From positions 272,409-336,408 of the forward strand of contig JAKLJI010000001.1 of NCBI GenBank assembly GCA_023151275.1: DNA of 64,000 nucleotides, in the 5' to 3' direction. The notes under the pieces were generated by a model. It did no database searches, was not told the DNA's origin, and saw only the letters and a program-made list of their open reading frames with translations. This DNA comes from Bacteroidia bacterium (GTDB taxonomy: Bacteria > Bacteroidota > Bacteroidia > UKL13-3). A program made the translations under genes and the position numbers. Positions 4,116 through 62,754 of this stretch are shown piece after piece; the first letter of the stretch is position 1, and each line of letters begins with the position of its first letter.

Positions 4116-7100
4116 TTAGTTGGTCTTAGTAACCTTGATAGTTTTGCTTAAACCACCTTGGCTTACACGAACAAAGTACATTCCTCCGCTAAGTTTGCTC
4201 AGATTCTTGATTTCATGGTAGTTTGAACCAACAACCACGTTCAATGATTCTGTGCTAATCACACGACCTTGCATATCCAATACGCTAACACTAGCAGTAC
4301 CGGAATTTGAAGCTTCGATGTTAACACTTACCTGAGAAACGAATGGATTCGGGAACACACTCACTTCATCTTTCAATAGATCTTCTTCAGAAACCGCTAC
4401 TACATTCGAGTAAGCAAAAGCTCCATCAAAATCTACCTGACGTAAGCGGTAGTAAAGTGTAGTTAAACCTGTGCGAGCAAAGGCGTTGTAATCAACACTT
4501 GCATAGTTAACAGTAGTTTTACTGTTTCCTTTACCGGTAACGAAACCAATTTCTTCAAATTTCTCTCCATCCAACGAACGCTCGATGAAGAATCCTTTGT
4601 TATTGATTTCAGTTGAAGTTGCCCAATTCAGGTTAACATCGCCAGCTGCATTAGAAGCTTTAAACATAACCAGGGTAACTGGCAAGGTGTTTACCAAGGT
4701 ATCACCACCAACACCATACTGACCATATTGAGTCATATTGGTACGGCTAAGTACTGGAGCGGCATTTGAACCGGCAGTAGTTACGTGAGTACCATTGATA
4801 GCCCAGTTGGTAGCATTTCCTGATCTTCTCATTAAGAATAAACCAGTGTAGCTATTTACTCCTGTGAAACCAGTAGCATTAAATGTACCAGTAAACTCAC
4901 CACCATTGATACCATTTGGAAGCAATGACCAGTAGCCATTCACCCCAGCACGAGTAGCAGTTACAGAAGCAACTGGATCACTTACAGGTAAACCTGCATT
5001 ACCAGGGATTGCATTCACGAAGCTGGCGGTTAAAGAACCATATTGAGTGGCACCAACAGTGTACTGAACGGTAACCTCTCTAGTAGTACCAGCAGTATCA
5101 ATCAGTGGGAACGAAACTTGACCAGTAGTTGAATTAAACCAACGAGCAAAACTTCCATTTACACCAGAACCGGTTCCAACAATCAGAGTACCTGTTGCAA
5201 CGGTATCTTTACCTGAAGCCAAAGTGAAGTTTGCACCGTTTCTTACACGAGCATTGTTTCCAAGTGACAAAGTATCAGATACAGACAATGTATTTCCTGA
5301 ACCGGCAAGGTTAACTACAGTTCCATTGGTTACTTCCATCACACGTACGGTTTCAGTAGCAACACCCGTAATTGTAATTGGGGAAGTAGAGTTAAACACC
5401 AATTTATCGTTCATGTTTGGAAGTGTACGAACCGGAGTCCAGTTAGCAGGCAAGGTGTAGACATTTGAGGTTGAACCTGTCCAAACGTAGTTGTTGAAAG
5501 GAGCATCCTGAATATCTACAGAGTAGTCTTCAGTTTCACCCCAATTGTAAGCTTGACAAGGAGTTGGCAAAGTACCTTGCTCACTGTAAATCACGCGCAT
5601 TCTGGTTTTTCCTGTGCTGGCAGAAGTTGGAACAACCACCTGACCATTGAACAATTGACCAAGATTGCTTGATGTATGATTACCTGTGCTGTAAACCAAT
5701 TCATTTGGATCTGTGAAGTCGCCATCGCCATTGAAGTCGATGTAAACAGCTCCCCAAGCACCATAGTTACCACCGCAAGAAGAAAGATTCAAGCTTAAAG
5801 AATAAGAACCACCTTTATAAAGAATTGGAGCGGCTAACTCAGTATAGTTGTTGTAGCGCTGAAGCACTGAACCTGGTCCACCCAATGAATTACAATTTGT
5901 AGTATTATTCAAGGTACCTAAAGTTACGTTCCAAATTTCCTCATCAGCAGTAGAACCGGCAATTGAAGGGCAATAAGGAGCACGAATTTTTCTTGCACCA
6001 AGTGGAGCAGTAACGGTTGGGATACGTGAAACACCTGCTACAGTTACACCAGCCATTTCAGCATCAACCGAGTCACCAATAATTGCATTTGATTTGATAT
6101 CATATACAACCCAGAAGTAGTTTGTACCATTCAATAGCGCTTGAGTTCCTGTAACAGCATAAGCACCTGTTGCAGTTGGAACATAAGTAGTACCAAACTG
6201 AGTTACCTGAGCAACTGTTGGATTAGCATTAGCACCAGAGTAGTAAACTTTAATTCCAGCAATGTTTGAGGTATCAATACCACCGCCATTGGTGCTCAAG
6301 TCAAACTGTGTTACGTTGATTGGAGCACCCGCAGCACTTGTAACCACATCTACTCTCAACATTGGGTTGTTGATTGAAGACTGTTCAACAGCTGATAAAT
6401 CAGGATGAGCAGTTGTGGTTGAAATGAAGGTCATTGGAACAGCTACGATTCTGCTTCCGGTTGGAGCTGAAACAGTAGGCACATACCAGTTACCAAAGGC
6501 TTGAACACTATCAAAACGAGCATCCAATAAATTACCGTTTGCAGCTGTTGCGCTAACATCGTAAGCCAACCAGTAGAAGTTGGTATCATTAATTGCAGTA
6601 TCTGACACAAGGAATGAGAATTGGCCAGAAGGTGAAGTTACAGTACCAACAAGGTTGTTGTTATTAAACACACCTGAGCTGCCGGTTTTGTAAAGTTTAG
6701 CAGAAACTATATCAGCAGCAGCTGTTGTACCAGCGGTATTGAACCTTAGTTCAGAAATAATACCAGGAACACAAGGTGTAGCAACAGCTTTAACAGGAAC
6801 ACGTAATACGGGAATATCAGTAGAACCGGCACCAACCGAACCTGTAATTTGTTCTGCTAGTGAAGTAGTATAAGAAGCTGGCTGACTGATGATATTAACT
6901 GTATAATCTTCAGTTTCGCCATAGCCATAAGTTCCACATGCAGAAGGAACCATACCCTCAACCATTACCACACGCATTCTGGTTAAACCAGGAGTTGCAG
7001 TACAAGGAACCATGAAAGTTCCCGTGCGGAAAACATTTAAACCATATGTAAATGAAGGCGAGGTATGCGCATTTTCACCTGGATCAGTAAAGTCACCATC

Positions 7101-10100
7101 GTTGTTGAAGTCAACAAAGATTGAAACATAACCTGTGTAGTTACCACCGCAAGTTGCAGCATGGATTGAGAAGGTATTAGCTAAACCTGCAATAACATTG
7201 ATTGGGGTTAATCCGGTGTAATCCGAATATTGATTCTGAACCGAACCAGGACCACCTGTTGAAGCACAAGTTGAATTGTTTGTAACAGAGTTAATTGTTA
7301 CACCCAAAATTTCACCATCAAATGTAGTAGTAGCAGAAGAAGTACAGTAAGGTTGACGGATTACACGTGCACCGGCAGGTGCAGTTGTAGTTGGAACGCG
7401 AGTGATTGAAGCCACATCAATACCGGTCACTTCGCAATCTACAGAATCACCAATGATAGCACTAGCAACACCTTTGATGTCATAAGTTACCCAGAAGTAG
7501 TTTGCTCCACCTGCTAATGGCTGAATACCTGTAACATTGAATGAAGCACCAACAGCAACCGGAACAAATGTAGTACCGAACTGACTGGTAGTTGCAAAAG
7601 TGCTACTGTTTCCAGTGTACCAAACTTTAATTGCTGAAATGTTCGAAGTATCAATACCTCCACCATTGGTGCTTAACGCAAACTGAGTAAGGTTAATTGG
7701 AGCACCAGTTGCGCTAGTATTTACTACAATACGCAATAGTTGGTTGTTAACTGAACCTGTTTCAACTTTCGACAAACTTGTATGAATGGCATTAGATGAA
7801 ATGTAGGTCATTGGAGTAGAAATGGTAACTGAACCAGCAGGGCTGCTAACAATCGGTGCGTAGTAAGCACCAAATGCTTGTACACTATCAAAACGAGCAT
7901 CCAACACATTGTTATTTGCAGCAGTAGCAGCTACATCATAAGCCAACCAGTAGTTATTGGTATCGTTAGCAACTGTATCAACAAAGTTGAATACAAACTG
8001 ACCACTTGGAGCAGTAACAGTACCCAACAAGTTGCTGTTGTTGAACACAGCTGAAGCACCTGTTTTATACAATTTAGCAGTCAAGATATCAGCAGCAGTG
8101 GTAGTTCCTGAGGTATTAAAACGCATTTCGGTAATAACACCAGGGATACATGGAGTTGCAATAACTTTAACAGGAACACGAAGAACGGCAACATCGGTAG
8201 CGCCAGCTGATGTAGTTCCAGTGATTTGAAGAGTAGTAGCATTTTGATAAACCGGAGGAGCAGAAATAATATTTACAGTATAATCCTCAGTTTCACCATA
8301 GCCATAAGTTCCGCAAGGAGTTGGAACAGCACCTTCAACCATAACAACGCGCATTCTGGTTAAGCCACCAACTGCAGTACAAGGAACAACAAAACTTCCA
8401 GTGCGGAATACATTCAAACCATAAGTGAAAGATGGAGAAGTATGCGCATTTTCACCTGGATCGGTAAAGTCACCATCGTTGTTGTAATCGATGAAGATAG
8501 AAACATAACCCGTGAAGTTACCACCACAAGTAGCAGTATGGATGGAGAAGGTATTAGCTAAGCCTGCAACAATATTGATTGGAGTCAATCCTGTATAATC
8601 TGAATACTGACTTTGTACTGAACCAGGACCACCAGTTGTTGAACAAGTAGAGTTATTGGTTGTAGAATTGATTGTTACTCCCAAAATCTCACCATCAAAA
8701 GTTGTTGTTGCCGATGATGCACAATAAGGCTGACGAATAATACGTGAACCTGCTGGAGCTGTAGTAGTTGGAACACGTGTAATTGAAGCAATATCAATAC
8801 CATTTACTTCACAATCTACTGAATCGCCAATGATTGCGCTTGCCACACCCTTGATATCATAAGTTACCCAGAAGTAGTTAGCTCCATTTGCCAAAGGCTG
8901 AATACCAGTTACGTTAAACGAAGCACCAACGGCTACAGGAACAAAAGTGGTTCCAAACTGAGTGGTTGTAGCAAATGTACTGCTGTTGCCAGTGTACCAA
9001 ACCTTAATACCTGCAATGTTTGAAGTATCTATACCACCACCGTTTGTACTTAAGTTAAACTGAGTAAGTGAAATTGGAGCTCCAACAGCACTTGTATTTA
9101 CTACAATACGCAGCATTTGGTTGTTGGTTGTTCCTGTTTCAACTTTTGAAGTTGTTGTATGAATAGCATCCGATGAGATATAAGTCATTGGAGCAGCAAC
9201 AACCCTTGAACCAGCAGGGCTACCAACTAGAGGAGAATAGTAAGAACCAAATGCCTGAACACTATCAAAACGAGCATCTAACAGGTTGTTGTTTGCAGCA
9301 GTTCCTGCTACATCATAAGCCAACCAGTAGTTGTTGGTATCATTTGAAACGGTATCAACGAAGTTAAATACAAACTGACCGTTTGGACTTGTTACAGTAC
9401 CCAAGAGGTTGCTGTTTGTGAAAACACCTGAATTACCTGTTTTGTAAAGTTTAGCAGCCAAGATATCACCTGCTGTAGTTGTACCAGCAGTATTGAAACG
9501 CAATTCGGTAATCACTCCAGGAAGACAAGGGGTTGCAACAACTTTTACAGGTACACGAAGCACCGGAACATCGGTTGCCCCTGTTGAGGTGGTTCCGGTT
9601 ACTTGAATTGCAGTTGCGTTTGTGAAGGATGGAGGAGAAGCCACAATATTAACCGTGTAATCTTCTGTTTCTCCATAACCATAAGTTATGCAAGGTGTTG
9701 GAACTGAACCTTCAACCAGAATAACACGCATTCTGGTCAACCCTGGATTTGCGTTACATGGAACGGTAAAGGTACCTGTTCTGTAAACATTCAAACCATA
9801 GGTGAAAGCAGGTGTAGTGTGTACATTCTCACCGGCATCAACAAAATCACCGTCATTATTATAGTCAATGAAAATCGACATATAACCTGTGAATTGGCCA
9901 CCACAAGTAGCTGTGTGCACCGAGAAGGTATTAGCTAAACCTGCTACCAAGGTAATAGGACCAAGGTTGGTAAAGTTTGAATACTGGTTCAAAATTGAAC
10001 CGGTGGTTCCAGTAGTTGCACAGGTTGAAACATTGTTGAACGAATTGATTTGTACACCTAAAATTTCGCCATCAGCAGTTGTTGTTGCATTAGATGGGCA

Positions 10101-13100
10101 ATAAGGAGCGCGAATTATACGCGAGCCAGCAGGTGCAGAGGCAAGTGTTTGTGCAATCCCGTTTACAGTCAATCCTGAAATTTCGCAATCTACTGAGTCA
10201 CCAACCGGAGCGGTTGCTAACAAATCATAAGTTACCCAGAAATAGTTAGCTCCGTTTACCAGATTCACGTTACCATTGATAACAAAAGCACCGTTTGGAG
10301 CCAAAGTAGTTCCAACCAAATTGGTTGTTGCAAATGAATTGCTTGATCCGGTAAAGTACAATTTGGCATTCGCCAATGAAGTGGTTGGGCTAGCAAATGT
10401 ACCGTTGGTGTTCAATGCAATTTGTGTTAAAGCTACAGGAGCACCTGTTGCCGACATATTCACCTGAACATTCAAAATCTGTCCATTGGTTGCACCCTGT
10501 TCAATTTTTGAAAGAACTACCTGATCAGCAGAAGCACTCACATAAGTCATTGGCGAGCTAACAATACGGTAACCGGCAGCAGGAGCTGTTGGATTAGCAA
10601 CTACACTATTAAATGTATATGACGTTAAATTAGCCGACAAACTATCGCCGAGGTTAGCAGTTCCAGATACATTGTATACAAGCCAGAAATAATTATCACC
10701 GGCACTAATGGTTTGTGTTCCGTTAACTGTGAATGATGCACCCAGTGTTGTTACCAGTGAACCAAATGTAGAGTTCACATTAAACGTAGAGTCACTTCCG
10801 GTAAAATACACACGAGCTCCTGTCAAAGCAGCCAGATTGTTTGTGCCAGCAGTGCTGAAAACCATCTGAGTCAAATCTTTTGGAACCTGACCAGTTGCAG
10901 TTAACTTAATGCGCAACATGGCATTGTTTGAAGTACCTGGAGAAACTGGGTTTGTATTTCTTTGGATATCTGTAGCGTTAACAGCCATAAGGCCCGCATT
11001 AGAAACAAATCCGAAATAAGAACCGTTGTTTGCTAGCGGAGCAATTGGACCAAAAGGACTGGTTGTTGCAGTTGCAAATGTATAAACCGTATTGTTTGCA
11101 AACGCAGTTGTGTTTGTTGAAGCGTTCGAACGTCTCTTCCAGGTTGAACCTGTTAATGCCGGAGCTTGTCCAACAAACAACTGATTCTGATTACCTGAAA
11201 TATTATCACTATTGCCAAAAGTATAGTTTTGAGCTCTTAAGGTAAGTGTGGCGTTGGTTCCTAAATCATTACCATTGTTTAAGTCGAGGTAATAGAATTT
11301 ATCACCCATTAAAGTTGTTAATCCGGTATCAACTGTTCCACCAGCTGGGCTAACAATTGAGAAGGTGATTTGTTGGTTATTCCAAGTTGCACCTGGAGCA
11401 AGAATTACAGTTTTCAAGTGGTTTGAATTGACTGTGCTTTGCAAGTAAGAACCTCCAACACCCAATGGAACAGTTGCAGAAGTTGAGTTTGCAGCACCCC
11501 TCACCATTCTAACAGGACCAACCACATAAGAACCTTGTGTAGTTGGTGGATTTGTAGTAGAAGGAGTAGCGCCTGTAGCACCATTTCCAAGTTGACTAAT
11601 AATCAAAGGATTTGCAGCACTAGTAAATACAATACCACGGCTAAACGTAGTTGCACCTCCTAGTGTAGCATTACCTACACGCAAAGGAGCTGTTGTACGA
11701 ATATGGTCCATGGTGTTAATAGTTAAGGTACCAAGTACCAATTGTTCACCATTTGAAACCGAATCACACTCAAAACCTGTAAAAATCGTATCACGACCTA
11801 AAATGGCCTGTTGCATGTTACCATTGGTAGTACCTCCATAATATACGTTACGCGCACTTGTACCCAAAGAAGGATAAATTGGTCTTGATGTAAAGAAACC
11901 TCTTGCATTACGGGTAATGGTCATGGCGTTTCCGGTTAAACCAACAGTTAAATTACCATTTGGAGCAACAGGACCTTCAATTAGGAATACACTATTTCTT
12001 AAAACCAAAGGTGAGTTAACGGTAAATCCACCTGAGTTTGCAAAATAAGTAACGGGAATTATACCACCGGTAATGGTACCTGCTCCAGAATAAGTAGCAG
12101 GAGAACCTCCTGAGAAGAACAAGGTGGTTGCAGTTGAACCATTCACAGTTAAGGTACCATCGTTGACTAAACTTTTTCCAATGTAAGTCCATCTGGAAAC
12201 AGTTGTAGAAAGAGCAGTATTTGATGAGTATGTTCCACCTGTATTAACAATTAAGTCACCAAAGGTTTGCAATACCTGGTTGGTACTTGAAGAGTAAAAA
12301 CGTAAAGTGCCGTTTACAGTCACATTTTGCGCACGCGCAATGTTCACATCAATTTCAACAGTATGGCCCACATCAACAATTACGTTGTTGTTTGCATCTG
12401 GCACAACACCACCTACCCAAGTTGATGGATTGCTCCATAAACCCGAAGCAGCAGAGATAATAGGAGTAGGAGTAAATTCTTCTACCGATAAACTGTCAAT
12501 ATAAAGATTAGAAGCAAAGCTGTAAGCTGCATTTCTTACCAAACCAATTTTAGCATTGGTTACCTTATAGGCATCAGGGATTCGAACAATAATATTTGAC
12601 CAAGGTGTTGTTGCTAGCATTGATCCGGCAGCTGTTGTTCCTGTTGCAGCAACAGGTGCATTTGGCTGAACATGCATAATTGGCTTCCAGGTCTGACCAT
12701 TGTCGTTTGAAGCTACAACAATTAACGGATAAGTGTAGTTAGAGGTCTGACTGCACCAGTACTTAAACTTCACATAAGGCGAAGTTGAAGAACTCAAGTT
12801 CATGGCAGGAGATTCCATTCTTCTTGAAAGCGCGTTGGTTGTTGTACCGAAGTAGTAATCTTCAATCCACAACACACCGTTTCCAGAAACAGAAGCCGGA
12901 AGAGGAGTTGCAAAGCCTGGCTTTGACCAGCTTGTTCCGGTACTTACATTTTGTTCCCAATCTTTGGGACCAGCTACGTTAATAGCTGCGGGAGTTCCAT
13001 CCGACCACAAATTGAACCTAGATTGGGTCCAGTTTGTCGGAGCAGAAGGAGTACCCGTGAACGTTCCATCAAAGTTTTCCGTCAGATACACCTGTGCTTG

Positions 13101-13178
13101 TGCTCTGCTGAAAACTCCGATAGTCAGAAGAAGAGCTGCTGAATACAACAGTCTTTTCAAGAGTAATCGTTTATTCAT
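4116..13178 (-). CDS. Giant repetitive T9SS-secreted surface protein (GEVED and BNR-associated repeats)
   Basis: The 3020-residue protein starts with a signal peptide (residues 1-29, ending SRAQAQ). Next come a jelly-roll-like domain (about 30-235), a G8-like segment (WSNPSTWVGGVVPDANNNV, about 240-300) and beta-rich sequence to about 720. From about 726 there are domains resembling the N-terminal domain of BNR-repeat neuraminidases (PF14873-like; pattern LRI-V-TS-GAP-LTQF...YFTGSS..F...NYFWVTYD). GEVED domains (CGGNFTGYVSIFIDYNNDGD ... YGETEDYTVNI) sit near 1023-1180, 1480-1638, 1940-2098 and 2403-2558. The DYNNDGDF loops look calcium-binding. After a last beta region and an FN3-like module, residues about 2945-3020 form a T9SS type A sorting domain (VFPNPF ... 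GGMYFVRVS). An adhesin or structural role at the cell surface is inferred. No catalytic domain was recognised. Confidence 0.9.
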   Translation of the reverse strand: MNKRLLLKRLLYSAALLLTIGVFSRAQAQVYLTENFDGTFTGTPSAPTNWTQSRFNLWSDGTPAAINVAGPKDWEQNVSTGTSWSKPGFATPLPASVSGNGVLWIEDYYFGTTTNALSRRMESPAMNLSSSTSPYVKFKYWCSQTSNYTYPLIVVASNDNGQTWKPIMHVQPNAPVAATGTTAAGSMLATTPWSNIIVRIPDAYKVTNAKIGLVRNAAYSFASNLYIDSLSVEEFTPTPIISAASGLWSNPSTWVGGVVPDANNNVIVDVGHTVEIDVNIARAQNVTVNGTLRFYSSSTNQVLQTFGDLIVNTGGTYSSNTALSTTVSRWTYIGKSLVNDGTLTVNGSTATTLFFSGGSPATYSGAGTITGGIIPVTYFANSGGFTVNSPLVLRNSVFLIEGPVAPNGNLTVGLTGNAMTITRNARGFFTSRPIYPSLGTSARNVYYGGTTNGNMQQAILGRDTIFTGFECDSVSNGEQLVLGTLTINTMDHIRTTAPLRVGNATLGGATTFSRGIVFTSAANPLIISQLGNGATGATPSTTNPPTTQGSYVVGPVRMVRGAANSTSATVPLGVGGSYLQSTVNSNHLKTVILAPGATWNNQQITFSIVSPAGGTVDTGLTTLMGDKFYYLDLNNGNDLGTNATLTLRAQNYTFGNSDNISGNQNQLFVGQAPALTGSTWKRRSNASTNTTAFANNTVYTFATATTSPFGPIAPLANNGSYFGFVSNAGLMAVNATDIQRNTNPVSPGTSNNAMLRIKLTATGQVPKDLTQMVFSTAGTNNLAALTGARVYFTGSDSTFNVNSTFGSLVTTLGASFTVNGTQTISAGDNYFWLVYNVSGTANLGDSLSANLTSYTFNSVVANPTAPAAGYRIVSSPMTYVSASADQVVLSKIEQGATNGQILNVQVNMSATGAPVALTQIALNTNGTFASPTTSLANAKLYFTGSSNSFATTNLVGTTLAPNGAFVINGNVNLVNGANYFWVTYDLLATAPVGDSVDCEISGLTVNGIAQTLASAPAGSRIIRAPYCPSNATTTADGEILGVQINSFNNVSTCATTGTTGSILNQYSNFTNLGPITLVAGLANTFSVHTATCGGQFTGYMSIFIDYNNDGDFVDAGENVHTTPAFTYGLNVYRTGTFTVPCNANPGLTRMRVILVEGSVPTPCITYGYGETEDYTVNIVASPPSFTNATAIQVTGTTSTGATDVPVLRVPVKVVATPCLPGVITELRFNTAGTTTAGDILAAKLYKTGNSGVFTNSNLLGTVTSPNGQFVFNFVDTVSNDTNNYWLAYDVAGTAANNNLLDARFDSVQAFGSYYSPLVGSPAGSRVVAAPMTYISSDAIHTTTSKVETGTTNNQMLRIVVNTSAVGAPISLTQFNLSTNGGGIDTSNIAGIKVWYTGNSSTFATTTQFGTTFVPVAVGASFNVTGIQPLANGANYFWVTYDIKGVASAIIGDSVDCEVNGIDIASITRVPTTTAPAGSRIIRQPYCASSATTTFDGEILGVTINSTTNNSTCSTTGGPGSVQSQYSDYTGLTPINIVAGLANTFSIHTATCGGNFTGYVSIFIDYNNDGDFTDPGENAHTSPSFTYGLNVFRTGSFVVPCTAVGGLTRMRVVMVEGAVPTPCGTYGYGETEDYTVNIISAPPVYQNATTLQITGTTSAGATDVAVLRVPVKVIATPCIPGVITEMRFNTSGTTTAADILTAKLYKTGASAVFNNSNLLGTVTAPSGQFVFNFVDTVANDTNNYWLAYDVAATAANNNVLDARFDSVQAFGAYYAPIVSSPAGSVTISTPMTYISSNAIHTSLSKVETGSVNNQLLRIVVNTSATGAPINLTQFALSTNGGGIDTSNISAIKVWYTGNSSTFATTSQFGTTFVPVAVGASFNVTGIQPLAGGANYFWVTYDIKGVASAIIGDSVDCEVTGIDVASITRVPTTTAPAGARVIRQPYCTSSATTTFDGEILGVTINSVTNNSTCASTGGPGSVQNQYSDYTGLTPINVIAGLANTFSIHAATCGGNYTGYVSIFVDFNNDGDFTDPGENAHTSPSFTYGLNVFRTGTFMVPCTATPGLTRMRVVMVEGMVPSACGTYGYGETEDYTVNIISQPASYTTSLAEQITGSVGAGSTDIPVLRVPVKAVATPCVPGIISELRFNTAGTTAAADIVSAKLYKTGSSGVFNNNNLVGTVTSPSGQFSFLVSDTAINDTNFYWLAYDVSATAANGNLLDARFDSVQAFGNWYVPTVSAPTGSRIVAVPMTFISTTTAHPDLSAVEQSSINNPMLRVDVVTSAAGAPINVTQFDLSTNGGGIDTSNIAGIKVYYSGANANPTVAQVTQFGTTYVPTATGAYAVTGTQALLNGTNYFWVVYDIKSNAIIGDSVDAEMAGVTVAGVSRIPTVTAPLGARKIRAPYCPSIAGSTADEEIWNVTLGTLNNTTNCNSLGGPGSVLQRYNNYTELAAPILYKGGSYSLSLNLSSCGGNYGAWGAVYIDFNGDGDFTDPNELVYSTGNHTSSNLGQLFNGQVVVPTSASTGKTRMRVIYSEQGTLPTPCQAYNWGETEDYSVDIQDAPFNNYVWTGSTSNVYTLPANWTPVRTLPNMNDKLVFNSTSPITITGVATETVRVMEVTNGTVVNLAGSGNTLSVSDTLSLGNNARVRNGANFTLASGKDTVATGTLIVGTGSGVNGSFARWFNSTTGQVSFPLIDTAGTTREVTVQYTVGATQYGSLTASFVNAIPGNAGLPVSDPVASVTATRAGVNGYWSLLPNGINGGEFTGTFNATGFTGVNSYTGLFLMRRSGNATNWAINGTHVTTAGSNAAPVLSRTNMTQYGQYGVGGDTLVNTLPVTLVMFKASNAAGDVNLNWATSTEINNKGFFIERSLDGEKFEEIGFVTGKGNSKTTVNYASVDYNAFARTGLTTLYYRLRQVDFDGAFAYSNVVAVSEEDLLKDEVSVFPNPFVSQVSVNIEASNSGTASVSVLDMQGRVISTESLNVVVGSNYHEIKNLSKLSGGMYFVRVSQGGLSKTIKVTKTN
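5505..10120 (-). repeat. 1377-bp tandem intragenic repeat (459-residue unit)
   Basis: Equivalent positions in successive GEVED units lie at about 9681, 8304 and 6927 (exactly 1377 bp apart) and 5547 (1380 bp). Each unit holds one GEVED domain and two BNR-associated modules. The units at about 8740-7365 and 7365-5990 are the most alike, with long near-identical stretches such as VKVWYTG/IKVWYTGNSSTFATT. The outermost copies have diverged. Recent duplication or gene conversion inside the gene is inferred. Confidence 0.9.
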
Positions 13179-41359: not shown

Positions 41360-41448
41360 ACAATCAGCAATCCTAAAATCCAAGGATAAATTGCGAAAGG
41401 CATCAAAAAAGCAGGAATTGTTTATTTTTGAAGCTTGCACCCGCATCC

Positions 41449-42441
41449 ATGAAAGCAATTATTCCTGTAGCAGGAATCGGAACTCGCCTCCGTCCACATA
41501 CACATACTCAGCCAAAAGCACTTATTCCTATTGCCGGCAAACCCATTCTTGGCCATATCACCGAATACCTTAACCAAAATGGAATAACGGATTTTGTGTT
41601 TATCATTGGCTACCTGGGCGATAAAATCGAGCAGTACATCCAAAAAAGTTTCCCGCATATCAACGCCCGCTTTGTTATTCAAACCACGGGTAAGGGCGTA
41701 GGACATGCCATTTGGCTGGCCAAAGAACATGTTAAGCCTGCAGAAGAGGTGCTAATTGTTTTTGGAGATACGATTGTGGACATGGACGCTCAGGCCGTTT
41801 TTGCTTCTGAATACTCAACCTTGGGTGTTAAAAAAGTTGACGATCCCAGGTTGTTTGGTGTAGCAGAAGTTGACCGAAATGGCTTCATTACCCGCATGGT
41901 TGAAAAGCCAAGTATTCCAAAAAGCAACCTTGCCTTGGTAGGCGTGTACAAAATCCGTGAAAGTGAATTGCTTTTCGAGGCTCTTGAAGAAAACGTAGCC
42001 CAGCAACTCAAAACCCATGGCGAGTTTACCCTTACCGATGCACTCATGAAAATGGTTGAACAAGGGGTAAAATTCAGCACCTTTGATGTAGATAATTGGT
42101 TTGATTGCGGCAAAAAAGAAGTGTTAATCGACACCAACTCCTTGCTCCTGCGCAGGTTGAATTACGACACAAGTCCTTACCAATTCGAAAACACCATTAT
42201 CATCCCACCGGTATTTATTGGTGAAGGCTGCAAAATCAGCAATAGCATCATTGGGCCGCATGTTTCCATTGGCGAAAATGCCATTTTAAACTACGCCACC
42301 ATCAAAGATTCCATTATTGGTCCTTACGCGCAAATTGAATACGCCATTCTCCATCGCTCGCTCATAGGCAACGATGCGCTACTCAAGGGCATGATTCAAA
42401 GCCTGAACATTGGCGACAGTACCGAAATCAACTTCGGTTAA
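41449..42441 (+). CDS. Sugar-phosphate nucleotidyltransferase with left-handed beta-helix (second paralogue)
   Basis: The 330-residue protein starts at ATG 41449 with the signature IPVAGIGTRLRPHTHTQPKA, followed by TGKGVGHAIWLAKE, VFGDTIVD, WFDCGKKEVLIDTN and hexapeptide repeats (IGEGCKISNSIIGPHVSIGE). It has the same layout as the protein at 27276-28286 and should activate a sugar 1-phosphate for surface polysaccharide. A TATTTTTG box (41423-41430) 18 bases upstream is an exact -7 match. The gene is divergent from the creD operon. A structured repeat element begins 20 bases after its stop. Confidence 0.9.
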   Translation: MKAIIPVAGIGTRLRPHTHTQPKALIPIAGKPILGHITEYLNQNGITDFVFIIGYLGDKIEQYIQKSFPHINARFVIQTTGKGVGHAIWLAKEHVKPAEEVLIVFGDTIVDMDAQAVFASEYSTLGVKKVDDPRLFGVAEVDRNGFITRMVEKPSIPKSNLALVGVYKIRESELLFEALEENVAQQLKTHGEFTLTDALMKMVEQGVKFSTFDVDNWFDCGKKEVLIDTNSLLLRRLNYDTSPYQFENTIIIPPVFIGEGCKISNSIIGPHVSIGENAILNYATIKDSIIGPYAQIEYAILHRSLIGNDALLKGMIQSLNIGDSTEINFG

Positions 42442-42461
42442 AATTTAGGTTTGTAGGGCGT

Positions 42462-42658
42462 GTTTTGTGGCAAGCAAAATGGCGTTTCAATTGCCAATCC
42501 CTACCGCCACAAAACCAGGCCATCCGCTCAAAGGCATTGCAGGCTATGTCAGCTTTGCAGCTGCTTTTGGTAGCTTCCTGTGGTCGCTCCAAAACCAGCG
42601 CAAAGCTAAGCCATACCCAGCGGCTGCCTAACCGCTGCTGTCCTTCACGCGAGGTGAA
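42462..42658 (+). repeat. Structured dispersed element, copy 1 (four hairpins)
   Basis: H1: GTTTTGTGGC 42462-42471 pairs with 42506-42515, loop of 34 bases. H2: AGCTTTGC 42551-42558 with 42600-42607, GCTG with CAGC, TTTTGG with CCAAAA, apical loop 42571-42588 containing GCTTCCTGTGGTCGC. H3: CAGCGG 42618-42623 with CCGCTG 42632-42637. H4: TTCAC 42644-42648 with GTGAA 42654-42658. The order of H1-H3, the 34-base loop, the words TTTCAAT, CATC and TTGC at equal offsets and the H2 loop are shared with copy 2 at 62544-62754. It contains no convincing gene. It may be a small RNA, an mRNA-end structure or a non-autonomous mobile element. Confidence 0.75.
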
Positions 42659-46391: not shown

Positions 46392-49300
46392 TTACCCATT
46401 CCCTTCTACAATTTTTATTTCTTCTGGTGTCAACTCGTAAAGTTGGTAAACCAATTGGTCGATTTGGTATTCTAAGTCTGCTGTTTCGGCTGATGGGTTT
46501 TGTTTCTTAATAGCCAGGATTTGGTTAACTAAAACTTCGATTTCATTTTCTTGGTCTTTTGAAGAAATTTTTATAGGCAACAACTCAATTTTGTATTTCT
46601 TCCATCTGTTTGTTCCCATTCCTGTTGTTGTTCCAATTAAATTGAAATACCACTCTGAAACTTTTGAATTTAATATTGCTAAAAGGAATTTCAATTTTTC
46701 ACCTGTCATCAGAAAAGTAGTTGCCTCCGCAAAATACTTTTCATCGTCAAAGGCAAATTTTGGCTTATCTGATATTTCACCCCAAATAATCTTGGGTTTT
46801 TCAAAATCTTCCCAATATGAAATTGAATCCTGGGTTTCAAACCATAAATTACTCGTTTTCTTTCTGCTCCCCTGCTTCCCAGATTGTTCTAGTCGACTTT
46901 TTCCTATTGCAAGAAAATAACTCTTGAGAACTGGATAATCTTCGATGTCTATACGCATACTTGGAAAAGTACAGATGCACCACTTATTACCAAAATCAAT
47001 ACTGTACTTCTTTAAATCCCTGCCACGAACTATCGGTTTAATTAATCCAGCGTTTTTTCCATCAGCACTTACTAACTCATTTTTCTGGATTTCGTCAATA
47101 ATAAATGCGTCATTATAACCCGTTTTAATACCGAAGTTTATACGAACATCAAAATCCTTCAACAGTCTTGTACCATTTTCAATTTTCCACTTTAATGCCT
47201 CAACAGACTGATTTCCGATAAACCACTCGGATACAGAGGTAGGAACAAATTCAAAGCTATTTCTTTTGAAATATTCACTCAAGGAATCACCTAGTAAGTA
47301 ATCTTTAGAAAGATTGACAACTGGAAATGAACTTGAATTCCCTGAATTTTGAAGTATAATAATATTTGATTCAACAGTAGCTTCCTCAAATATTTGAACA
47401 TCTTCAATGTTCATTAAAGAAACTGGCAGTAATTTCTGACCGAAATATTTCTTTAAAAGCTCCCCATAAATCGCCCTTAACCAAGAGTTGGAGGTGATAT
47501 AGGTCAAAAAGCCCGATGGTTTTAAAATAGTACCACCAAGTTCATAGAACAAACAATAAATGTCAGCACCTTTAGAATACGTTACATAATTAGCTTTTGA
47601 AAAATACTCTGACTGCTCCTTTACTTTTGAAAGTGAAAAATACGGCGGATTCCCAATCACCACATCAAAGCCCACAAAATCGCCATTATCATTCAACACC
47701 TCAGGAAATTCAAAGCGCCATTCAAAGGCGTTTTCAAAAATCTTGTTGGCCTTTATCTCTTCTATTTCTTTCTCAAGTTTTTGGGTTTCGGCAGTTAGGA
47801 GGTTTACTTTCTTGTTCCAATCGGCTTTTTCTTTTTTATTGCGCTCAAACAATTGAACCTGGTTGGTTAATTGAAACAACTCGCCGCTGAGTTTGCGAAG
47901 CTTTAATACCTTGGGGTCATTCTGGGAGATTTCACTTCTAAAATCTGATTTAATGTCGGCAATCAGCTGCTCCATTTCTCGCTTTTGTTCCTTGCTTTGG
48001 GCGTTGCGGTACGTATCAACAGCAATTCTATACCCATCAATGGTCCACTTGCTTTTTTTCAGGGCCTGCTTCAGGTCGGCATCAATCGGAAAACGACTTA
48101 CCAAGGAATTGCCGCACTTGATGTTGATGTCGATATTCGGAAGTGTTTCAAGCGCCGTAAAATTACTTTCAGGGGTGTAATAGGCACTTTTTAATAGTTC
48201 AATCCAAAGCCTCAACCGACAAATCTTAACAGAGTTAGGGTTAATATCCACTCCAAACAGGCAGTTTTCTATAAGAGTTTGCTTTTCGTGGAATATTGAC
48301 TGTTGAACAACCTGTCTTTCTGTAAGGTGTTTAGCTGTATATGTAAAAGCACCGCCACCAAAGGTGTATTTAATTGTCTTCTCTTTCCTTGGTGCTGGTG
48401 CTAGATAATAAAACTCTTCGCCACTTTCTTTTTCTGTGATAAACAATTCATCATTTACAATTTCGACCCAATAGTTTTTCAAGGACCGGCCTTCGAAGTC
48501 GCAGAGAATTCCTAAGTCGTTTTTAACGGCAATCATTTCATTAAGTGCCGAAACTAAAAAGTGGCCAGAACCCACGGCAGGGTCGCAAATTTTAATGCTG
48601 TTTACAATCTGGTTGGCTTCTTTTCGGTCTTCAATTTTGTCGTAAAGCTCTTCAAGGCTGCTGCAGTTCCAATTCTTTGTTTCGTTAAACTTCTGAACTA
48701 CAGCTTTGCGAATGGTTTCACGGCACATGTACATGGTAATGAAACCGGGAGTGAAGAAAGAGCCGTCTTTGTACCCGTTAATTTTCTCAAAAATCAACCC
48801 AAGAACAGAAGCAGTGATGAGCGTTTTGCTGTCTTCCTGAATTTCTTCACTGCCCTCTGCGCCAAAGTCGTAAGCATCTAAAAATTCAAACAAGTAATGA
48901 AGCGTAGTCATTTTGCCTGTTCGCTTCTTGCCTTGTTGGTCTTTCAACACAGTTTGCGAAAAAATCGGAATGGTTTTATCGTCTTTCAGGTTGCTGATAA
49001 AGAGGGTAAGCTGCTCAAGGCTTGTTGGCTCAAAAAGCGACGAATTGAGATAGGGAACTTTTTCAAAAAGCTTTTTTACATCTTCGTTTCGCTCGTCTTG
49101 TTTGCGTGCCAACACCTGAAAAAACAAGCTGTTCAGGTCGTCGTAGTTTTTAATCTTATCAAGATTTAGAAACGAATAGGATTTATCGCCTTTCTGATAG
49201 GTAATTAGCTGCGCTTCCAACAACTTTAAAAACAAGATTCGGTTAATCCAGGTAATTGAAAGTTCAAGGGCAACATTAAAAAGCTTTTCCTGTTGGGTAT

Positions 49301-50222
49301 TTCCAAATTGGCTTGGCTTCTCCAAACGGCTTAATTTGTCTAGGCTATCAAGCTGAATTATAGCATCTTCAAGAATTGTTCCAGTATGCCGTTCGCCTTC
49401 TTTGTTTCGTTCAATCAGCTTTTTGCCTCCTTCTTTGGTTTCTGTCAACCCAATAATGTGCAGCAATTCACTGTAAAAGCGTTTATCAAGGCTATTGCTA
49501 TCGTTGGTAAAAGGAAGTTTTAAAAGATGTTCGGGCGAAAGAATCTTGAATAAAGCAATGAGCGAATTATCATCTGCTTTGTCGCTATTGCGAAGTGGTT
49601 TTTGAAAGTCTTGAAGGTTGAAATACGTAAATTCAATTTCAGAAGTAATGCTATCAATAAAGGGCTCGGCAATCTCTTTGTAAAAAACCTCTGTTGTTTT
49701 CTTACTTGCCTCAAATTGTTCAAACTGCCTTACAAAGGCTTTATTCTGGGCGAAAAGTTTTTCAAATAAATGCTCGTTAAAAATGAACCACTCATTTATG
49801 TTGGTAGCAACTAAATGCTTAACTTCAAGGTTCTTGTGAGAAATTCTTTCGCGTAGATAATACAAAACCAACTCTTGAAATGCTTTTTTATTGAGATTTT
49901 CTCTCGTAATCATTTCCGCTTTGTTGGTTGGCTTTTTCGCCTCAATAATTACACCTACTGTTGAGCTTGCTTGTTGTCCGTTATGAATTACCAGATCGTT
50001 TCTACCTTTGGTATTGATGAAATGGTTTTGCTTGTAATAGGTATCCTTCAAAAAGTCAGAAACCAGGTTTTTATGAAACTCTTCACTTTCGGTATCGTTA
50101 GTCCTGTCAAGTAAAGCAATAAGATTGGCCTTGAACCCTTCAATTTCAGTCCTGTTTGGTTTTACTTTTAAAAAGGCTTTGTTCAGTGCCTTCCGGGGTT
50201 TCAATTCTTTTAAGTTATTCAC
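46392..50222 (-). CDS. Type IIG-like restriction-modification enzyme (single chain)
   Basis: The 1276-residue protein joins nuclease, methylase and target recognition. The N-terminus has a PD-(D/E)xK-like nuclease core (Asp76 in GRNDLVIH, Glu94 and Lys96 in VIIEAKKP). A helical region follows. The adenine-methylase core has motif I DPAVGSGHFL (about 544) and motif IV NPPYFSLSK (about 857). A coiled coil lies between them (about 780-830), and the C-terminus (about 990-1260) resembles a target-recognition domain. Such enzymes methylate one adenine and cut DNA a fixed distance away, defending against phage. No separate specificity gene is nearby. The 278 bases before its start (50223-50500) contain the promoters of this gene and the divergent one. 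Confidence 0.9.
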   Translation of the reverse strand: MNNLKELKPRKALNKAFLKVKPNRTEIEGFKANLIALLDRTNDTESEEFHKNLVSDFLKDTYYKQNHFINTKGRNDLVIHNGQQASSTVGVIIEAKKPTNKAEMITRENLNKKAFQELVLYYLRERISHKNLEVKHLVATNINEWFIFNEHLFEKLFAQNKAFVRQFEQFEASKKTTEVFYKEIAEPFIDSITSEIEFTYFNLQDFQKPLRNSDKADDNSLIALFKILSPEHLLKLPFTNDSNSLDKRFYSELLHIIGLTETKEGGKKLIERNKEGERHTGTILEDAIIQLDSLDKLSRLEKPSQFGNTQQEKLFNVALELSITWINRILFLKLLEAQLITYQKGDKSYSFLNLDKIKNYDDLNSLFFQVLARKQDERNEDVKKLFEKVPYLNSSLFEPTSLEQLTLFISNLKDDKTIPIFSQTVLKDQQGKKRTGKMTTLHYLFEFLDAYDFGAEGSEEIQEDSKTLITASVLGLIFEKINGYKDGSFFTPGFITMYMCRETIRKAVVQKFNETKNWNCSSLEELYDKIEDRKEANQIVNSIKICDPAVGSGHFLVSALNEMIAVKNDLGILCDFEGRSLKNYWVEIVNDELFITEKESGEEFYYLAPAPRKEKTIKYTFGGGAFTYTAKHLTERQVVQQSIFHEKQTLIENCLFGVDINPNSVKICRLRLWIELLKSAYYTPESNFTALETLPNIDINIKCGNSLVSRFPIDADLKQALKKSKWTIDGYRIAVDTYRNAQSKEQKREMEQLIADIKSDFRSEISQNDPKVLKLRKLSGELFQLTNQVQLFERNKKEKADWNKKVNLLTAETQKLEKEIEEIKANKIFENAFEWRFEFPEVLNDNGDFVGFDVVIGNPPYFSLSKVKEQSEYFSKANYVTYSKGADIYCLFYELGGTILKPSGFLTYITSNSWLRAIYGELLKKYFGQKLLPVSLMNIEDVQIFEEATVESNIIILQNSGNSSSFPVVNLSKDYLLGDSLSEYFKRNSFEFVPTSVSEWFIGNQSVEALKWKIENGTRLLKDFDVRINFGIKTGYNDAFIIDEIQKNELVSADGKNAGLIKPIVRGRDLKKYSIDFGNKWCICTFPSMRIDIEDYPVLKSYFLAIGKSRLEQSGKQGSRKKTSNLWFETQDSISYWEDFEKPKIIWGEISDKPKFAFDDEKYFAEATTFLMTGEKLKFLLAILNSKVSEWYFNLIGTTTGMGTNRWKKYKIELLPIKISSKDQENEIEVLVNQILAIKKQNPSAETADLEYQIDQLVYQLYELTPEEIKIVEGNG

Positions 50223-61950: not shown

Positions 61951-62511
61951 ATGGAAGCTTTCAACGAAAACCACAACCCCTGGAAAACCCTTTCCACCGA
62001 AATAAAATACGACAATCCCTGGATACAGCTTCAACATTCAGATGTAATTAACCCATCCGGAAATCCGGGCATTTACGGACTCGTTCATTTCAAGAATCTG
62101 GCCATTGGCATCATTCCCCTCGACAGCGAAAACAATACCTGGATAGTGGGACAATACCGCTATGCCATAAACCGCTACTCTTGGGAAATTCCGGAAGGTG
62201 GCGGAAAACTTGAAAACGACCCGCTCGATTCAGCAAAACGTGAGTTATTGGAAGAATGTGGCATCGTTGCCAACTCCTGGAACTTGCTCATGGAAATGCA
62301 CCTAAGCAATTCGGCCACCAACGAGCATTCTTTGGTTTACGTAGCCCGCGATTTATCTTTTACGGAGGCACAACCCGAAGACACCGAAGATCTACGCCTG
62401 CGCAAACTGCCCTTTGAAGAGCTGTATCAACTGGTAATGCAAGGTCAAATTACCGATGCCATAACCGTGGCTGCGGTGCTAAAACTCAAACTGCAACTCT
62501 CCGGAATTTAA
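61951..62511 (+). CDS. NUDIX hydrolase (ADP-ribose pyrophosphatase-like)
   Basis: The 186-residue protein has the ADP-ribose pyrophosphatase layout: GLVHFKNLAIGIIPLDSENN, WIVGQYRYAINRYSWEIPEG and a NUDIX box GGGKLENDPLDSAKRELLEE ending CGI. Between the first Glu and the REx2EE core there are eight residues rather than the usual seven. The downstream LRKLPFEELYQLVMQGQITD is also family-typical. It would hydrolyse nucleoside diphosphate derivatives such as ADP-ribose. A structured repeat element starts 32 bases after its stop. Confidence 0.9.
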   Translation: MEAFNENHNPWKTLSTEIKYDNPWIQLQHSDVINPSGNPGIYGLVHFKNLAIGIIPLDSENNTWIVGQYRYAINRYSWEIPEGGGKLENDPLDSAKRELLEECGIVANSWNLLMEMHLSNSATNEHSLVYVARDLSFTEAQPEDTEDLRLRKLPFEELYQLVMQGQITDAITVAAVLKLKLQLSGI

Positions 62512-62543
62512 CCCGCCGATTTTAAGCTTTTCTTTTGGGGCTT

Positions 62544-62754
62544 GCACCTTGCCAAGGAAAGGTCATTTCAATCAAAACTACGTTCCGCAAGGTGCCGGGT
62601 CATCACTCCTACTCCCTTGCAAAAAACGCGCAACTGTAGGGCGCAATTGGGCTTCCTGTGGTCGCCAATGGCACCCAACAGTTCCTGCATTTTTTAGCTG
62701 CGGGGGTATCCGCATCTGCCCCTAAGCCGGAGGGGAGGCGCATTAACTCGCGCC
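62544..62754 (+). repeat. Structured dispersed element, copy 2 (five hairpins)
   Basis: H1: GCACCTTGC 62544-62552 with GCAAGGTGC 62587-62595, 34-base loop. H2: AACTGT, GGG, GC and ATTGG (62632-62650) pair with CCAAT, GC, CCC and ACAGTT (62665-62683) with three single mismatches, around the loop GCTTCCTGTGGTCG. H3: TGCGG 62699-62703 with CCGCA 62710-62714. H4: CCCCT 62719-62723 with AGGGG 62731-62735. H5: GGCGC 62737-62741 with GCGCC 62750-62754. The order of hairpins and conserved words matches copy 1 at 42462-42658. The bases on either side up to the next gene (62512-62845) show nothing else. Confidence 0.75.

Follow-up and report, generated by a model that had tools for sequence, protein, structure and literature searches.

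A folded repeat with covarying stems in Bacteroidia, almost certainly a long form of Flavo-1, with features that suggest a spreading piece of DNA

What is the element of about 195 nt that occurs twice, behind two different genes, in the 64,000-nt stretch of Bacteroidia DNA analysed here (the window), and why do its stems differ between the copies and yet pair in each? A sequence-only reading had proposed a structured element with covarying stems at both places, and this proved to be real, both by folding against shuffled sequences and by covariation over the family. The fold of copy 1 beats 200 of 200 dinucleotide shuffles (RNA z = -4.07), as does that of copy 2 (200 of 200, RNA z = -2.64). 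Both copies are complete representatives of a single family of ~195 nt, scored here with R1, a covariance model built from an alignment (A2) of 32 copies from the source genome. The stop codon of a nucleotidyl-transferase gene (41428-42441, + strand) lies 14 nt ahead of copy 1, and that of a NUDIX gene (61951-62511, + strand) lies 26 nt ahead of copy 2. The parts of the two copies are as follows.

42456-42650, + strand: copy 1, full length, 195 nt (cmsearch with R1, 142.6 bits, E 1.2e-37)
42458-42462, + strand: copy 1, 5' strand of P1, GCGTG, pairing with CACGC at 42646-42650
42463-42514, + strand: copy 1, hairpin P2, TTTTGTGGC / GCCACAAAA, with a 34-nt loop
42517-42644, + strand: copy 1, arm P3-P4-P5, of which P3-P4 is the Flavo-1 core
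42517-42522 and 42639-42644, + strand: copy 1, P3, AGG.CA / TG.CCT
42532-42536 and 42625-42629, + strand: copy 1, P4, AGGCA / TGCCT
42551-42607, + strand: copy 1, stem P5, AGCTTTGC (42551-42558) / GCAAAGCT (42600-42607)
42573-42587, + strand: copy 1, apex GCTTCCTGTGGTCGC
42646-42650, + strand: copy 1, 3' strand of P1, CACGC
62538-62728, + strand: copy 2, full length, 191 nt (cmsearch with R1, 123.5 bits, E 2e-32)
62539-62543, + strand: copy 2, 5' strand of P1, GGCTT, pairing with AAGCC at 62724-62728
62544-62595, + strand: copy 2, hairpin P2, GCACCTTGC / GCAAGGTGC, with a 34-nt loop
62597-62722, + strand: copy 2, arm P3-P4-P5
62597-62602 and 62717-62722, + strand: copy 2, P3, GGG.CA / TG.CCC
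62610-62616 and 62702-62708, + strand: copy 2, P4, TACTCCC / GGGGGTA
62651-62665, + strand: copy 2, apex GCTTCCTGTGGTCGC
62724-62728, + strand: copy 2, 3' strand of P1, AAGCC

The two elements had thus been located correctly, but their ends, placed before at 42462-42658 and 62544-62754, had to be moved to those listed. The apical motif is identical in both copies, as had been noticed, and the 34-base loop reported for the first hairpin is typical of the family, where P2 loops have a median of 33 nt and fall between 31 and 35 in most copies. The loop word TTTCAAT and the word TTGC, both taken for conserved, are present in only 4 and 22 of 100 copies and are no family feature; CATC, conserved across the window copies, occurs in 42 of 100 and is not family-wide. 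The third hairpin of that description, AGCGG/CCGCT, was seen in 2 of 80 copies, CCGCT standing unpaired in the internal loop between P3 and P4 in the family fold, while the stems P1 (GCGTG/CACGC; GGCTT/AAGCC) and P4 (AGGCA/TGCCT; TACTCCC/GGGGGTA) were absent from it.

The tip motif, allowing up to two mismatches, marks 51 sites in the 3.9-Mb source genome vs 4 for a reversed control, and the loci at these sites form one family with a fixed architecture and changing stems. Building a covariance model, proposed earlier as a check, did bring up further copies, R1 finding 106 in the source genome; a scan of the genome and of viral collections with a 14-base pattern was set aside as too unspecific, with mostly chance matches. 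In the family fold, a closing stem P1 leads into a three-way junction from which hairpin P2 and the long arm formed by P3, P4 and P5 branch off; the element ends read GGGCNNG...CNNGC with variable letters. P1 has five pairs behind GG and covaries across copies (e.g. GCGTG/CACGC, GGCTT/AAGCC, GCCTG/CAGGC, GCGAG/CTCGC), and P2 has about 6-13 pairs and a loop with A-rich triads at fixed positions and otherwise few shared letters. P3 takes the form GGG-N-NN/NN-N-CCC, the P3/P4 internal loop carries CCGCT-like words on both sides, P4 is usually TACTCC/GGGGTA (in copy 1 instead AGGCA/TGCCT), and P5 is a long stem with a fixed tip, in the window form an extra of ~75 nt.

Covariation was measured on A2, a plain sequence alignment, and on A4, in which 100 copies were fitted to the structure of the model, and the two agree even though A2 was built without structure. 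In A2, paired cells make up 79% (61.8% after shuffling) and double-change cells number 305 (vs 124.5); A4 has 86% paired cells (61.5% after shuffling), and in it 1177 cells are changed on both sides of the pair (vs 392). When the partner was slid by 1-3 columns, the covariation score of A4 dropped from 0.519 to 0.07-0.11. With paired cells and double changes so far above the shuffles, the earlier claim of selection on structure holds. Pairing might also be kept by copying errors, through template switching between the arms of the palindrome, so that covariation would arise without selection or function. The scarcity of wobble or mismatch intermediates between stem types would fit such a process, as would P2 stems that have nothing in common in copies whose 3' parts are nearly the same (95% identical). 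We nevertheless regard it as very unlikely, since the unpaired words, the loop length and the junction geometry are kept across the whole bacterial class, and the short stems P1 and P3, which enclose long insertions, covary too.

The sequence-only reading knew of no named family that fits, but the element almost certainly belongs to Flavo-1 (RF01705), a motif that this reading had itself named for checking, and is its long form. Scanning the window against Rfam at gathering scores gave nothing relevant, and E-value scans of both copies stayed free of Flavo-1 as far as E 5; a plain Rfam scan misses these copies because they are a long variant, and the identity was reached instead via short forms on the opposite strand. 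Among 58 relatives searched with R1, 22 have shorter forms of 65-190 nt, mostly 75-125, which score 24-36 bits against Flavo-1 on the opposite strand, under its gathering score of 42. In the source genome itself, Flavo-1 matches of 57.9 bits (C6:25647-25744, +) and 54.7 bits (C11:592902-592999, +) coincide with reverse-strand short copies of the element at C6:25652-25776 and C11:592907-593031, respectively. Conversely, a second covariance model, R2, built from the short forms and covering P1-P4, was compared with 24 Flavo-1 loci in other families and matched 22 of them on the reverse strand, mostly at full model length. P1 and P2 covary clearly in the matched loci too; some classic Flavo-1 loci are without P1 and P2 as such. 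Judged from these matches, the P3-P4 core is Flavo-1 read on the opposite strand, and the long form belongs to the family through a chain leading from long form to short form to Flavo-1. The two share a homologous P3-P4 core with unpaired CCGCT-type words, the Bacteroidota as hosts, many copies per genome and the absence of an assigned function. They differ in that the Rfam model is 76 nt long, lies on the opposite strand and takes in P3-P4 only, whereas the element described here adds P1 and P2 and, in the window form, the ~75-nt stem P5 with its conserved tip, with a nil score for the Rfam model. Flavo-1 is listed without a function in Rfam and the literature (Weinberg et al. 2010, PMC2864571; PMC9029176), and a literature search for a described Bacteroidota repeat of this type turned up only mentions of Flavo-1. 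The long form also exists beyond the source genome, forms with the GCTTCC-NNN-GGTCGC tip being found in another family of the class (L348:1501-1689, genome G042) and in a Sphingobacteriaceae MAG (L005:1-125).

In RNA helices, G-U is far better tolerated than A-C. The intact helices of the 100 copies (2877 cells) contain 11 G-T, 39 A-C and 113 other mismatches, and all well-paired columns (3950 cells) contain 74 G-T and 62 A-C; a small tRNA control (7 tRNAs, 155 pairs) gave 10 G-T and 0 A-C. Indirectly, these counts suggest that pairing is judged at the DNA level. One P4 pair is an exception, being a conserved T-G in 80 of 99 copies, and among the short forms G-T is slightly the more frequent (13 vs 4 A-C). 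The transcriptome of Flavobacterium psychrophilum agrees with a reading at the DNA level, Flavo-1 being found there in sense or antisense without preference and many copies being untranscribed (PMC9723704). All this points less to an RNA gene than to DNA that spreads; of the two options left by the sequence-only reading, the hairpin-dependent mobile DNA is the one favoured and the structured RNA is the less likely.

The placement relative to genes speaks for an RNA nevertheless. In the source genome, the upstream gene lies on the strand of the element in 78 of 100 copies, with the element at a median of 32 nt past the stop codon, and sense placement behind genes is also what one would expect of a structured RNA in the 3' untranslated region, acting in stability, termination or processing, or of an sRNA as in the Rfam label; to that extent it counts against a DNA repeat. 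The same placement recurs on plasmids, phages and a microvirus, the fold resembles an RNA three-way junction, and orthologous copies are better conserved than their flanks. We still consider an RNA of this kind unlikely: G-T is no commoner than other mismatches, unlike in the tRNA control, 17 of 100 copies follow a complete intrinsic terminator that ends at the 5' edge of the element (0 end at the 3' edge), the classic Flavo-1 loci show no orientation preference, nor do the published transcripts (PMC9723704), and presence among relatives ranges from 0 to >100 copies. In the relatives, the bias towards sense placement is weak (24 vs 20). The flanks are T-rich on the 5' side and begin with A on the 3' side.

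The element is present in 31 of 64 genomes of the taxonomic family, with 0-23 copies vs >100 in the source genome, and the R1 search found none in three congeners; Flavo-1 is present in 57 of 149 genomes of the class. The genes preceding both window copies have orthologues in the three congeners without an element behind them, and no exact empty site could be drawn for the window copies, the neighbourhoods differing in these congeners. The element is carried by 83 plasmid records from Bacteroides, Phocaeicola, Parabacteroides and Butyricimonas (plasmid p5482 has two copies), by tailed phages behind the terminase gene and by one microvirus, where a minimal form of 68 nt follows VP2 at a distance of 42 nt on the virion strand. 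Two matches labelled 'Bacteriophage sp.' (L473, L474) were rejected as viral since they look like chromosomal or plasmid scaffolds, and only one true microvirus is therefore counted. The 106 copies, the patchy occurrence in relatives, the congener sites without an element and the plasmids, phages and microvirus argue for mobility. Copies can also persist, since orthologous copies are conserved between species of some genera, being more alike than their downstream flanks, and this outlasting of the flanks suggests a host function. This counts against a spreading repeat, as does the divergence of copies within one genome, which is far greater than a recent burst would predict. Contig C26 of the source genome (G000; 34,042 bases) contains one and the same copy, identical flanks included, at two places 17,024 bases apart (L379 = L380), and is probably a double assembly of one ~17-kb circle, either a plasmid or a phage with the element. 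Candidate composite elements with a copy at either end (G028, G061, G040, G017) enclose ordinary genes only.

From the plasmid records, with two copies on p5482, and from the virion strand of a single-stranded DNA microvirus, it could be proposed that the element is a folded single-strand site for replication, transfer or recombination (second-strand priming, or attC-like) that has been scattered onto chromosomes; integron attC sites likewise lie directly behind genes and conserve structure over sequence. This is quite improbable in our estimate, given that just one microvirus has the element, that its ends are variable P1 letters without the R''/R' boxes of attC (RYYYAAC ... GTTRRRY), and that the copies are dispersed and form no cassette arrays. 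The RNAs of HEARO and IscB-type mobile elements are also structured, multi-copy and dispersed. The present element differs from them in that no nuclease gene adjoins the examined copies and no HEARO match appeared in the Rfam scans.

REP/BIME repeats, mobilised with TnpA-REP (RAYT), are likewise palindromes of extragenic DNA that reach high copy numbers and lie close to the ends of genes, and a small repeat of this kind behind genes could be spread by a Y1 (RAYT) transposase. The element differs in being much larger, with a three-way junction and stem letters that are not conserved, and in having neither a linked Y1 gene nor a tetranucleotide tag. Y1 or reverse-transcriptase genes had been named as neighbours to look for, and no link was found: Y1 counts are unrelated to element counts across genomes (rho 0.12, p 0.36), genomes without any Y1 still carry 23, 14, 7, 7 and 6 copies, the element is at 0 of 31 Y1/RT loci and at neither of the source genome's two Y1 loci, and neither of its two RVT_1 genes adjoins a copy. 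The Y1 transposase was thus rejected as the mobiliser, and spread as a REP element by such an enzyme appears extremely unlikely. The two Y1 genes of the source genome (L291 and L292; contigs C44 and C75 of G000) have their own palindromic flanks, of another REP family (CGACCCCTTCAGGGTCG; GCCCCGAAGGGGCGTAATCCCTCAACTATGGGC). As to other traces of mobilisation, an unsystematic look found no target duplications, no mobilising enzyme was found among Y1 and RT genes, and, of the signs expected of a retroelement, one clear 5'-truncated copy was seen (L269, 98% identical to L302).

The most similar copy pairs share only their 3' ~140 nt, and their P2 hairpins are unrelated, each pairing with itself; L388/L393, L366/L384 and L360/L375 are 91-96% identical in the shared 3' part. 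Over all pairs, identity of the hairpin and identity of the module are uncorrelated (rho -0.003), P2 arms being 37% identical in module-similar pairs vs about 31% in others. This mismatch could stem from recombination between copies or from renewal of P2 on insertion. A bolder version, which we think doubtful, is that in a mobile DNA recognised by its shape only the 3' module (P3-P5, ~135 nt) would be copied, with P2 and P1 rebuilt at each site as fresh sequences that pair well; we know of no described bacterial repeat that rebuilds a hairpin and closing stem at each new site.

Considering all of these findings, the interpretation that we prefer and hold to be probable is that of a non-autonomous, structure-recognised DNA repeat working like REP elements. 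A protein would recognise the DNA folded as a single strand or cruciform, and this folded DNA would also be what is spread; insertion would favour positions directly after genes and their terminators, in line with the placement seen in the source genome, and the copies would then stay put. Recognition would go by shape and by unpaired words, namely CCGCT in either strand of the P3/P4 internal loop and, in the long form, the GCTTCC-NNN-GGTCGC tip, so that stem letters could change as long as they did so in pairs. Flavo-1, filed since 2010 as an sRNA without an assigned function, now appears as one half of a bigger folded repeat that reads best on the opposite strand and is found on plasmids and phages and in >100 copies, and this changes which experiments fit. 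The >100 paired-stem variants within one genome offer a clean natural set for finding a protein that reads DNA shape.

A second repeat, of ~171 bp or double that length, adjoins the structured repeat at 4-31 bp in at least six loci and does not occur in the window. Its inverted ends are AACCCGGATTA..GCATTTGAACTTC ... GATGGTCAAATGCGTATTCCGGGTT, and its positions, in coordinates of the element strand, are L313:1707-1877, L386:655-825, L358:976-1146, L306:1143-1478, L318:1154-1489 and in L258. A short form at L335:1501-1621 (G048) holds in its apical loop an unrelated, known-looking repeat, CGTCATTGCGAGCAGAGCGAAGCAATCTG, and is thus a case of a repeat nested in a repeat. Elsewhere in the window, 4116-13178 is a gene for a secreted protein of 3020 aa with GEVED domains, whose DNA repeats have a period of 1377 bases, and 46392-50222 encodes a protein of 1276 aa with DUF7149, DUF7814, Eco57I methylase and TaqI_C domains, likely a one-chain restriction-modification enzyme.
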